Part shown: positions 2,260 through 29,298 of the stretch, in pieces
Numbering within the stretch: the first letter of the stretch is position 1
Layout: each line of letters begins with the position of its first letter
NCBI GenBank assembly: GCA_902806435.1
Contig: CADCWO010000078.1
Location: 340 to 64,339, forward strand
Source of the DNA: an uncultured Synechococcales cyanobacterium
GTDB taxonomy: Bacteria > Cyanobacteriota > Cyanobacteriia > Thermosynechococcales > Thermosynechococcaceae
DNA: 64,000 bases
Direction of reading: 5' to 3'
Program-made: the position numbers and the translations under genes
Notes under the pieces: model-generated
The model's input: only the letters and a program-made list of their open reading frames with translations
Databases searched by the model: none
What the model was told of the DNA's origin: nothing

Positions 2260-2476
2260 TGACATTTGAACTTCTCCTCTGTTCAAGTGGATACTTTAAC
2301 GGAGCGGTCTCTCTACCGGCGCATTCTTCTCCTCAGCGTGGCTGGCGAACGCCCGGCATCATCCGCCGCCCCAAGCCTTTGATGTACATGGCGGGCAGCG
2401 TGTCGGCGGTTGGTGCATGCCGTTGTTGGGCGTGCCGTTGTACAAACCGGCCTTCACACTACCAGCACTCGACTGT

Positions 2477-11390: not shown

Positions 11391-12692
11391 ATGATCAAGA
11401 TCAACTGGAAAAAATTCGGAATTTTTACTTTGTGCGGCTTGCTCCTTAGCTGGATGGTCAGTTGCAGTAGTGGTCCTTCTAGCTCCAGTAGTAACCAGCA
11501 GGCGGGGGGAACCCAGCAAGTCGAATTCTGGACGATGCAACTCCAGCCCAAGTTTACAGACTACTTCAACCAACTAATTGCCACCTTCGAGCAGCAGAAT
11601 CAAAACATTAAGGTGCGCTGGGTGGATGTGCCTTGGTCAGACATGGAACGCAAGATTCTCACGGCAGTCTCAGCCAAAACGGCGCCGGATGTGGTCAACT
11701 TAAACCCTGGTTTTGCTTCCCAACTGGCGCAGCGCAACGCCTGGTTAGAACTTGACACTAAGGTGCCTCAAGAAGTCCGCCAGCAGTACCTACCTAATAT
11801 TTGGTCAGCCAATACTCTCAACGGTAAAACCTTTGGCTTGCCCTGGTATCTAACGGCTCGGGTCCTCATTTACAACAATGACTTGCTTAAGCAAGCTGGA
11901 GTGACTAAACCGCCTGCAACTTATACGGAGCTGGCCCAGGTTGCCAAGCAAGTGAAGGATAAAACTGGCAAGTACGCCTTTTTTGCCACTCTGGTGCCGG
12001 AAGATTCCGCCGAAGTTTTGGAGTCTTTTGTCCAGATGGGGGTAAAGCTTGTCGATGATCAAGGTAACGCGGCGTTTAATACCCCCGCAGGCAAGGCTGC
12101 TTTCCAGTATTGGGTTGATCTCTATAAAAACGAGCTATTACCTCGGGAAGCCTTAACCCAAGGCCACCGGCATGCGATTGAACTTTACCAGCAGGGCGAG
12201 ACTGCGCTCCTGGCCTCTGGTCCAGAATTTCTAGACACGATCGCCAAGAATGCTCCCACGATCGCCAAAGCTTCCGCCTCTGCCCCTCAGATTACAGGGC
12301 AAACGGGGAAGAAAAACGTCGCTGTTATGGATCTAGTGATTCCCAAAGCGACGGATCAGCCTGAGGCGGCCTTGAAGTTCGCCCAATTCGTCACCAATAA
12401 CGAAAATCAACTTAGCTTTGCCAAAGCCGCCAATGTCTTACCTTCGACCTTAAAAGCCTTGGAGGATAATCACTTTAAATCTGCTGGCGACCAGGCTTCT
12501 GCCGTAGACCAGGCGCGGATTGTCAGCGCCAGCCAAATGAAAGACGCGGATGTATTAGTTCCAGCGATGAAGAATGTCAAGGATCTACAAAGAGCAATTT
12601 ATGACAACTTGCAGGCAGCCATGCTAGGCGAAAAATCTGTAGACCAGGCGATCGCGGATGCAGCCCAAACCTGGAATCAAGCTCGAGCCTGA
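11391..12692 (+). CDS. ABC transporter sugar-binding lipoprotein (family 1)
   Basis: This 433-residue extracellular solute-binding protein (SBP_bac_1 family) probably binds an oligosaccharide or polyol. The signal sequence ends in a lipobox-like WMVSC with Cys25 as the likely lipidated residue, then a Ser-rich linker. The mature part has VEFWTMQ and the family motif LPWYLTARVLIYNNDLLKQAGV. No permease or ATPase gene lies beside it; it is flanked by pilM (divergent) and folC (convergent, overlapping by 16 bp). The rest of the transporter must be elsewhere, as often in cyanobacteria. Substrate is not predictable from this sequence. Confidence 0.88.
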   Translation: MIKINWKKFGIFTLCGLLLSWMVSCSSGPSSSSSNQQAGGTQQVEFWTMQLQPKFTDYFNQLIATFEQQNQNIKVRWVDVPWSDMERKILTAVSAKTAPDVVNLNPGFASQLAQRNAWLELDTKVPQEVRQQYLPNIWSANTLNGKTFGLPWYLTARVLIYNNDLLKQAGVTKPPATYTELAQVAKQVKDKTGKYAFFATLVPEDSAEVLESFVQMGVKLVDDQGNAAFNTPAGKAAFQYWVDLYKNELLPREALTQGHRHAIELYQQGETALLASGPEFLDTIAKNAPTIAKASASAPQITGQTGKKNVAVMDLVIPKATDQPEAALKFAQFVTNNENQLSFAKAANVLPSTLKALEDNHFKSAGDQASAVDQARIVSASQMKDADVLVPAMKNVKDLQRAIYDNLQAAMLGEKSVDQAIADAAQTWNQARA

Positions 12693-13948
12693 GCGTGTCT
12701 GAGAAAATCACCGACCAGATACAGAGAACCGCATAGAACGACTGTCGAGTCAGGCTCCCCCTCGGCACTCTTTTGGGTTGCTGCCACCAGTCCGCTGGCT
12801 AGGTCTGGATGCTTACTGCACTCCGCCAAACCCGGACAAATTGCTTGGGCTAAAACTGCTAGATGTTCTGGATCAGCAGCATCATGGCCTGGGACGGGCA
12901 CTAGGTACAACTGATCGCCGGGCCTGAGTAAGGCTTGCAAAATATCAGCGTGATCCTTGGTGGCAAGCATCCCCATCACCCAGTTAACCGGACCGCTTCG
13001 ATCAGGACCGCTTCGATCATCTATGTATTGGCGCAGGGCTTGGGCAGCAGCCGGGTTATGCGCCCCATCAATTAAAATTGGATGCTCCTGCCAGTTTGTC
13101 CACTGGAGGCGACCAGGCCAGCAGGTCTTAGCCATGCCTGCACTAATTGTGGCTGGAGAAATTTTCCAACCTTGCTGCTGTAATTTTTGGAGGGTAGCGA
13201 TCGCCAGGGCGGAGTTTGTCAACTGCACGGCTCCCGGCAAGGGTAATGGATATTCAATCCCATCGTAGATGGCCCAACCATCACCCAGCGCTAACGCCGG
13301 TTTTACCCAGACGGTGGGACAGGCAAGTTCAGTGATTCGTTGCGTGACGACAGCTTTGGCCTCTCCTGGTAAGGGACCTACTACCGCCGGACATCCTGGC
13401 TTGAGAATTCCAGCTTTTTCTCTAGTAATATCCGCCAAGGTCGGACCTAACCGCTGCCAGTGCTCGCGGCTAATCGAGGTGATGATACTAGATAAGGGGC
13501 GATCAATCACATTTGTCGCATCCAGGCGCCCTCCTAAGCCAACTTCAAGTACGGCAACATCAACCTGTTGCTGGGCAAAGTAGAGCCAGGCAGCAGCAGT
13601 GATTACCTCAAATTGGGTGGGTGGTTCTCCAGGAGGGATGGCCGCTTGGACTAGTAAGAGCGATCGCTCTAGTTCTGCCGGTGTGATTGGCTGTTCGTTC
13701 AAGCAAATACGCTCACACCAAGTCACTAAATGGGGAGAGGTATAACGCCCAACGCGATACCCAGCCTGCGTGAGTACCGCAGAAAGATAGGCACAAACGG
13801 AACCTTTACCATTAGTTCCGGCCACGTGGAGTACAGGCACCTGATGGTGCGGATTGCCTAGGCTAGCTAGAAGTCGCTGAATCCGCTCCAGCCCTAGATG
13901 AATGCCGAAGCGTTCATAGCGCTTCAGGATGGCCTCAATAATGTCCAC
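12677..13948 (-). CDS. folC: Folylpolyglutamate synthase / dihydrofolate synthase
   Basis: FolC adds glutamate to dihydropteroate and folates; it belongs to the Mur-ligase family. Motifs are VPVLHVAGTNGKGSVCAYLS (ATP loop), the FEVITAAAWLYFA region, and ILIDGAHNP. I place the start at the GTG at 13948, giving 423 residues, the usual family length. The frame is open up to an ATG at 14125, but that 59-residue extension is basic and unlike other FolC proteins. A 15-bp perfect tandem duplication (12990-13019) codes DRSGPDRSGP in the C-terminal domain. The 3' end overlaps the convergent solute-binding-protein gene by 16 bp. A Pho-box-like array lies ~230 bp upstream. Confidence 0.93.
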   Translation of the reverse strand: MDIIEAILKRYERFGIHLGLERIQRLLASLGNPHHQVPVLHVAGTNGKGSVCAYLSAVLTQAGYRVGRYTSPHLVTWCERICLNEQPITPAELERSLLLVQAAIPPGEPPTQFEVITAAAWLYFAQQQVDVAVLEVGLGGRLDATNVIDRPLSSIITSISREHWQRLGPTLADITREKAGILKPGCPAVVGPLPGEAKAVVTQRITELACPTVWVKPALALGDGWAIYDGIEYPLPLPGAVQLTNSALAIATLQKLQQQGWKISPATISAGMAKTCWPGRLQWTNWQEHPILIDGAHNPAAAQALRQYIDDRSGPDRSGPVNWVMGMLATKDHADILQALLRPGDQLYLVPVPGHDAADPEHLAVLAQAICPGLAECSKHPDLASGLVAATQKSAEGEPDSTVVLCGSLYLVGDFLRHAQARA

Positions 13949-14181
13949 AGCACTTTTTAGAGTGGTCAATTTACACTTTTGAGAAGCAGTTCTATGACGA
14001 TGAATAGCATATTTATGAGGTTTAGTAACGCGACGCAAGTGGTAAAACCCCGGGCTCATGGTTTCAACTGTTAAGCGCCTGAACAATGGTTTCAGGCGCT
14101 TAGGGGCAAGAAAACCTACCAGCAAACTTTAATTGCGATCGCGTGTCACGAAGTAGGAAAACTGATGGCAGCAAATCCACT

Positions 14182-14222
14182 AGGTTAAGAAATAGTTAAG
14201 CATAGGTTAAATTTAAATTAAC
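14182..14222. promoter_or_regulatory. Pho-box-like tandem array (SphR/PhoB type)
   Basis: Four 8-bp units recur with an exact 11-bp period: AGGTTAAG (14182), TAGTTAAG (14193), AGGTTAAA (14204) and the weaker AAATTAAC (14215). The reverse complement of unit 1 is CTTAACCT, the unit of the cyanobacterial Pho box, which is three such repeats with 3-bp spacers. The array lies 51 bp before the DUF7219 start (+) and ~230 bp before folC (-). The CTTAACCT sense faces the minus strand, so which gene it serves is unclear. Confidence 0.55.
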
Positions 14223-14272
14223 AAGCCTAGAGTTAAACCGATAAGGGCAGTGAATGGCTCCCAATAAAAGCA

Positions 14273-14539
14273 ATGACAGAACCTGAGCACACAAACCAAC
14301 CAAAAGACAGCTTCCTCTACCCCCGGAGCCGCTATCATGGTCAGTTCAAGCCTGAGCATCTGGTGTTTAACGCCAACTTGCAAGAATTTACCCAGCGACT
14401 TACCTATATCTGTGCTTTAGAAACGGGGGGTAAAATTCCGCCGGAGGAAGCCTATGCCAAAATTAAGCATCTTTGGAAACAGTTAAAACAGAGCAAAAAG
14501 GAACTAGGTATTGGTAATACCCAGCCCTTAGAGGACTAA
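14273..14539 (+). CDS. DUF7219 family protein
   Basis: This 88-residue cyanobacterial protein of unknown function starts with a disordered polar segment, then SFLYPRSRYHGQFKPEHLVFNANLQEF, the conserved core, and two predicted helices ending in a Lys-rich region (KHLWKQLKQSKKELG). It has no membrane segment or signal peptide. It lies alone between folC (divergent) and panE (convergent), downstream of the TTAA-repeat array at 14182-14222. If that array is a real Pho box, the gene could respond to phosphate. The family has no known activity. Confidence 0.8.
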   Translation: MTEPEHTNQPKDSFLYPRSRYHGQFKPEHLVFNANLQEFTQRLTYICALETGGKIPPEEAYAKIKHLWKQLKQSKKELGIGNTQPLED

Positions 14540-15583: not shown

Positions 15584-15710
15584 AGTCTTGGAATATCTAC
15601 CCTGCTAATGCCTGAATCTCATTAGTAAGCTGATCAGCATGGATTCTTAAGAGAGGCAGCTGAAATTATCCTATTGACCTGCAACTTAAGTGACGATTAG
15701 CTTATCACTG

Positions 15711-15760
15711 AAAGAGATATCTGTTGACACCCTGGAAAGGGATATCTGTTGGCACCCTGG
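15711..15760 (+). repeat. 25-bp tandem duplication in promoter region
   Basis: Two 25-bp units, 15711-15735 and 15736-15760, differ at two positions. Each contains GATATCTGTTG followed by CACCCTGG. The first copy contains TTGACA, a consensus -35 hexamer; the second has TTGGCA. They lie just upstream of the gene starting at 15787, so the duplication may duplicate a promoter element or a protein-binding site. Confidence 0.7.
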
Positions 15761-28192: not shown

Positions 28193-29104
28193 CTACTTTT
28201 CGACAAATACCACATCTAACAGGTCAGGCTGAAAGAAAATCCGCTTGTTACTCTGGCGCAGCAGGTCACTAAGTTGCACTTCTACAGACGGTAGGGTTTC
28301 TATAGAGTCGAGTAGGAGTACGCGATCGTTTTGGCTAGGGTTTGAGAGCAGCCAATTTCTGAGGGTGTCTCGAAAGATATCCTCTTCATCCTGCCCCTCT
28401 AAGCTAGTATCCTTCAGGTAATCCGTACAACGGCGAAATAGCTTGGGCAGAATTAACTGGCTGTTAGGGCCAAGGTTATCCTGACTTTTTAAGGTAAAGC
28501 TGTCTGTAGTATCTAGCTCCCAGACGCCGCGTGACTTTTCCCGTGCCTTTGCAGTCGCTTGGCGCAACAATTGGCGATGTTCGAGCGGAGTCGAAGTATA
28601 GACCGTATAGTAAGCCATTCCCTCAGCCAGCAGGCGAAAGTTAAGAGTCTGCAGCAGCAGAGACTCATTGACTTGCACCCAGTCTCCATCTTTGAGTGAA
28701 TCAGTATCTGCGGCTAATAGAACGTAGGAGACAGGGCGGCCATTGGTTTCCACTGCCTTGGTGAGAATAGCTCCAGGGATGACCTCCGGCTGGGCCTCTC
28801 GGACTGAATTGGAGTTTTTGCCAGCAAATTCAATAGCCTTGAAGCCGATCCAGGCCAAAAGTCGATCTCGAGAAGCTTTACCCAACGGCTGTGCTGCCTT
28901 CCCGTAGTGAAGCTCTGGTGCATCTACCCCCTCGAACCGCAGCTGCACGCTGCTATCCTGGCGGGAGGGTTTAATGCGATCGTCTCGGTAAAGGCCTCGG
29001 TACGCGTTGCGCCGCTTGGCTATAAATCGGACCGAGTCCCCATCGGGTTCCTTACCGACAATCACAAACTGGCCCAGAATAACCTGGTAGAAGGGAGGTG
29101 ACAT
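28193..29104 (-). CDS. Thermonuclease-family (SNase-like) protein
   Basis: This 303-residue protein has a staphylococcal-nuclease-like domain in its first ~200 residues. Visible are RFEGVDAPELHYG, carrying the Asp/Glu pair that binds Ca2+ and water, the downstream RLLAEGMAYYTVYTS and the AREKSRGVWELD closing motif of the family. No signal peptide is seen, so it would act in the cytoplasm, unlike secreted thermonucleases. The last ~100 residues are acidic, unrelated to SNase and unknown. It lies alone between the DUF1400 hydrolase and the divergent epoxide hydrolase. Nuclease activity is inferred. Confidence 0.78.
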   Translation of the reverse strand: MSPPFYQVILGQFVIVGKEPDGDSVRFIAKRRNAYRGLYRDDRIKPSRQDSSVQLRFEGVDAPELHYGKAAQPLGKASRDRLLAWIGFKAIEFAGKNSNSVREAQPEVIPGAILTKAVETNGRPVSYVLLAADTDSLKDGDWVQVNESLLLQTLNFRLLAEGMAYYTVYTSTPLEHRQLLRQATAKAREKSRGVWELDTTDSFTLKSQDNLGPNSQLILPKLFRRCTDYLKDTSLEGQDEEDIFRDTLRNWLLSNPSQNDRVLLLDSIETLPSVEVQLSDLLRQSNKRIFFQPDLLDVVFVEK

Positions 29105-29298
29105 GAACTTCTCCTGGTTGGCAATTAACCTGCTCTCAACCTTATAAAGTCAAACTTAAGGTCAGTTAAAGCTGAGATTAAGGACGATTAGATTAGGGTT
29201 GTGGCCGGTGCTCAGGAAACCTGAGAGCCTGCTGGATTGTGACCCGGATTCTGGTAGTCAAAGCTAACATAGTCACTAAAGCCGCAAGGAAGCCAATT

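Follow-up and report, generated by a model that had tools for sequence, protein, structure and literature searches.

We analysed a 64,000-nucleotide stretch of cyanobacterial DNA, hereafter the window, in which a tandem array of TTAA-centred repeats lies between folC on the minus strand and, on the plus strand, a gene encoding a small protein of the DUF7219 family. The features discussed below are as follows.

12677..13951, minus strand: folC, divergent neighbour (TIGR01499, E=3.4e-102); pairing with the array not conserved
14182..14189, minus strand: Pho-box unit 1, reading CTTAACCT; distal to DUF7219
14185..14213, plus strand: candidate core promoter of DUF7219 within the array, predicted by consensus scoring only
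14193..14200, minus strand: Pho-box unit 2, reading CTTAACTA
14204..14211, minus strand: Pho-box unit 3, reading TTTAACCT
14215..14222, minus strand: weak fourth unit, in register, reading GTTAATTT; the triple 14193-14222 has one mismatch
14273..14539, plus strand: DUF7219 small protein gene, 88 aa, the putative target (PF23856, E=1.5e-33; array association across cyanobacteria)
28193..29104, minus strand: staphylococcal-nuclease-like gene behind a second Pho box (PF00565, E=1.9e-7)
29153..29182, minus strand: second Pho box in the window, in canonical forward orientation, with a -10 (TAAGGT) 8 bp beyond; does not belong to the DUF7219 locus

On the plus strand, the array consists of AGGTTAAG (14182-14189), TAGTTAAG (14193-14200), AGGTTAAA (14204-14211) and the weaker AAATTAAC (14215-14222), which recur with a period of exactly 11 bp and spacers of 3 bp. 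Read on the minus strand, positions 14182-14211 give TTTAACCTatgCTTAACTAtttCTTAACCT, that is, three perfect YTTAAYYW units in the order TTTAACCT-atg-CTTAACTA-ttt-CTTAACCT. All 24 of their 24 constrained positions fit the cyanobacterial Pho-box unit, and the fourth unit, GTTAATTT, fits it less well. The array thus has the make-up by which Pho boxes are recognized: an 8-bp CTTAACCT-like unit, directly repeated three times or more, with 3-bp spacers. A first-pass annotation had described the four TTAA units with this spacing and had equated the reverse complement of the first with the Pho-box unit; each unit was found where it had been placed, and the equation holds for three of them. The array ends 50 bp before the DUF7219 ATG (14273). 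The DUF7219 protein scores 114.7 bits against the PF23856 profile (curated cut-off, 27), and the GTG start of folC at 13951 was assigned from the typical FolC N terminus. Three other repeats were noted in the vicinity: a GC-rich inverted repeat in the folC leader (TAAGCGCCTGAA...TTTCAGGCGCTTA, 14070-14104) with no T run and no Rfam match, an exact in-frame 15-bp tandem duplication within folC (GGACCGCTTCGATCA, 12990-13019), and a near-perfect 25-bp tandem repeat (GAAAGAGATATCTGTTGACACCCTG, 15710-15760) between a ketopantoate-reductase-like gene and the next open reading frame.

Allowing up to three mismatches, we observed 3 three-unit matches in the 64-kb window, compared with 0.01 expected by chance; these are two registers of the DUF7219 array and the site at 29153-29182. 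In a pattern search of the 4.79-Mb genome (4,792,292 bases), nothing but the DUF7219 array matched without any mismatch; the site that came next, apart from this array, had one mismatch. Other parts of the same genome carry related elements. A PhoB-like regulator and an adjacent PnpS/PhoR-like kinase (C208) are a probable SphR/SphS pair, judged by similarity and reading, both scoring below the curated PhoB/PhoR cut-offs, and a forward-oriented Pho array lies upstream of a PstS gene (C132). The gene at 28193..29104, behind the second box of the window, is likely to be a Pho-regulated nuclease comparable to nucH. A one-mismatch Pho box (L003, 1501-1530, plus strand) overlaps the 3' end of an ABC-transporter gene, around 190 bp upstream of a gene that reads as a HlyD-like secretion adaptor. 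A two-mismatch box in L004 (1501-1530, plus strand) lies between a histidine kinase, beyond which a PhoB-like response regulator is encoded (L335), and a small secreted-looking protein.

Of 155 genomes sampled from the class, 138 contain the DUF7219 family. We surveyed 249 DUF7219 loci by scoring arrays within 300 bp upstream, calling an array strong at a two-unit score of at least 16 or a three-unit score of at least 18. Of the 249 genes, 71 were preceded by a strong two-unit array and 52 by a strong three-unit array, where shuffled upstream sequence gave an expectation of 0.6 in each case (a two-base block shuffle that keeps dinucleotide content only approximately); such arrays are therefore commoner than chance upstream of this gene. 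Among 23 relatives scanned genome-wide with up to two mismatches, 12 of about 50 matches adjoined DUF7219. Among 39 relatives, arrays of the same kind stood directly upstream of one DUF7219 copy in several genera, next to differing upstream neighbours, among them alanine racemase (alr), acetate kinase (ackA), FHA and YHS proteins and, in named genomes, acsF-like, cobO-like, purC-like, gatA-like and Na/Pi-cotransporter-like genes (all names from reading the sequences). Because these neighbours differ, the array must travel with DUF7219. None of the other scannable DUF7219 copies in the genome of the window has a strong array; together with the varying neighbours, this assigns the array to one DUF7219 lineage. 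Array presence is clustered on the DUF7219 gene tree (23 changes versus 60 in shuffles, on a poorly resolved tree), and arrays are missing from most DUF7219 genes of the Nostocales and from many paralogues.

By contrast, the upstream regions of folC in 17 scannable relatives contained no array (best three-unit score, 11.4, versus 30.0 in the window). Only in the window does folC adjoin a surveyed DUF7219 gene, except that one other genome has a folC-like gene on the opposite side. We therefore rejected folC as the target of the array: of the two candidate genes, comparison among relatives selects DUF7219 and excludes folC. The first-pass annotation had raised phosphate control of one or the other and had suggested a conservation scan; its Pho-box reading is borne out by both sequence and conservation, the array being kept before DUF7219 and absent before folC.

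The orientation of the array is nearly invariant. Every one of the 52 strong three-unit arrays is directed away from DUF7219, as are 69 of the 71 strong two-unit arrays. With one vote per genus, a strong array occurs in 48 genera and is exclusively reversed in 46 of them. As a control, we applied the same scan to 30 genes of the pstS type, drawn from the surveyed genomes; in 27 of them the best box was oriented with the gene, including every strong score. The pst arrays also have a -10-like hexamer that begins 8 bp beyond the array. The staphylococcal-nuclease-like gene of the window, taken as an internal comparison, follows this canonical plan, with its forward box at 29153-29182 and TAAGGT 8 bp further on. 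A -10 at this spacing was not found on the DUF7219 side of the DUF7219 arrays, and on the divergent side it was absent except in five Acaryochloris-like arrays shared with pstS and in two others. The window array conforms to this pattern: unlike an activated Pho promoter of the pst or sphX type, it does not share the orientation of its gene and is not followed by a -10 at 8 bp in the direction of DUF7219. At around 20 loci, the array stops 7-40 bp short of the DUF7219 start codon, so that a promoter would have little or no space between the two; at about half of the boxed loci, it lies 80-174 bp from the presumed start codon. In the five Acaryochloris-like loci (L045, L046, L049, L050 and L051), divergent DUF7219 and pstS-type genes share one Pho array, with the -10 on the pstS side. 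A Brasilonema locus (L154) has a strong Pho array (2447-2465, minus strand) just upstream of a Na/Pi-cotransporter-like gene divergent from DUF7219, and a second, weaker array nearer DUF7219.

The best-scoring predicted promoter pair at the window locus, TTAAGA (14185-14190) and TAAATT (14208-14213) with 17 bp between them, falls entirely within the array; an alternative predicted -10 is TAGAGT (14228-14233). A weak further sign across DUF7219 arrays is that a -10-like word in the distal unit has a -35-like word 17 bp before it. A -10-like TANNNT occurred within the distal unit of 42 of 65 arrays; counting one array per genus, it was found there in 24 of 45 and in the second unit in 18 of 45, a difference that is only suggestive. 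In the window array, the -10-like TANNNT is not in the distal unit. The idea that the distal unit itself serves as the -10 was strong over all loci and weakened at one locus per genus, and we did not rely on it.

On balance, we consider it probable that the array is a conserved SphR/PhoB site that controls DUF7219, likely by repressing it when phosphate is limiting. The array would be bound by SphR, the PhoB-type response regulator of cyanobacteria, and would lie inverted across the DUF7219 core promoter or just beyond it on the downstream side. Under phosphate scarcity, SphR in its phosphorylated form would block RNA polymerase there and lower DUF7219 expression, while forward-oriented boxes would let the same protein activate the pst, sphX and nuclease genes. 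Two features point this way. The motif is directed away from DUF7219, opposite to the strong pstS-type boxes, which makes repression likelier than induction, and repression fits best with a reversed site placed over or beyond the core promoter. The first-pass annotation had overlooked this direction, and induction is what its phrase "phosphate control" would usually mean. PhoB is a dual regulator that activates or represses according to the position of its site (PMC10294691), and in Synechocystis its binding requires all three TTAA cores (PMC11126600).

Among the alternatives, the one with most to recommend it, although still unlikely, is that SphR activates DUF7219 under phosphate limitation despite the reversal, using an intervening promoter or non-canonical contacts. 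Activators of the PhoB type engage RNA polymerase in a single orientation, and the fixed orientation seen here is the opposite of that at pstS-type genes. The 80-174 bp that separate array and start codon at about half of the loci favour such activation, but towards DUF7219 no -10 was found at any fixed spacing, and the 7-40 bp at around 20 loci argue against it. Of the PhoB targets described in Synechocystis, the majority are activated (PMC11126600), which also speaks for this reading. We consider it less probable again that the array is read by some other regulator of the OmpR family whose motif is a TTAA direct repeat. The genome is rich in OmpR/PhoB-type regulators, and SphR is a putative binder at this site; however, the unit consensus of the DUF7219 arrays, CTTAACCT with columns mirrored, is the pst Pho-box consensus (see also PMC1906773), in the Acaryochloris-like genomes the array serves a pstS gene as well, and no other regulator with such a motif emerged from a literature search.

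Two further readings take the direction of the motif at face value, and both seem very improbable. If SphR activated folC in the canonical orientation, the motif would point at its target, the start of which lies around 230 bp away, but there is no -10 at +8 towards folC (the sequence there is TGCTGC), and the array stays in place while upstream neighbours vary, quite apart from its absence before folC in relatives. A divergent or antisense RNA affecting the region, driven from the array, would likewise agree with a motif directed away from DUF7219 at nearly all loci; against this, a divergent -10 at +8 is confined to the pstS-sharing arrays and two others, upstream sequence is not conserved past the array, and the 64-kb window contains no Rfam element. 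Single TTAA words are common, yet a chance AT-rich repeat without function can be dismissed almost entirely, given the match expectation, the survey counts and the conservation of the array.

The predicted structure of the DUF7219 protein is a two-helix hairpin (helices 27-51 and 57-78; mean pLDDT 80) preceded by a conserved FLYPRSRYxG segment. A structure search with this model gave no PDB match at E <=0.001, the best hits being generic coiled coils, and a profile search of PDB sequences returned nothing significant. NblA (PF04485), a small starvation-response protein, is likewise a small helical protein of cyanobacteria and has a short local resemblance to DUF7219. Homology to NblA was rejected: there was no profile match, and profile-profile comparison was not significant (probability 7%).

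The Pho box as a type of element, and its regulator, are already known (PMC1906773, PMC11126600). The boxes of Synechocystis sphX, pst and phoA-nucH described there share with the DUF7219 array the 8-bp unit, the 11-bp period, the presence of at least three direct repeats and the CTTAACCT consensus. The DUF7219 array differs in being reversed relative to its gene, in having no -10 at the canonical spacing and in preceding a small protein gene rather than one for phosphate uptake. Position-dependent repression, or roadblock, by PhoB has been described in Escherichia coli (PMC10294691); the arrangement at DUF7219, where repression is our proposal, is conserved across many families of cyanobacteria and stands before one gene family. 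What appears to be new is the conserved link between Pho box and DUF7219 together with the fixed inverted orientation. A literature search found no paper naming DUF7219; the supplementary target lists of PMC1906773 and PMC11126600 lay outside this search and may list orthologues by gene number.

More tentatively, and with somewhat less than even confidence, we suggest that DUF7219 is a widely conserved gene of a repressed branch of the cyanobacterial Pho regulon, encoding a small helical-hairpin protein that SphR would shut off through an inverted box at phosphate exhaustion and that may be a factor for growth or phosphate sufficiency, the orientation of the box giving the sign of regulation. 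If this is true, a widespread cyanobacterial protein family would be linked to phosphate status, and box orientation would separate activated from repressed SphR targets. Pho-regulon predictions made without regard to strand could then be re-read for other repressed genes.
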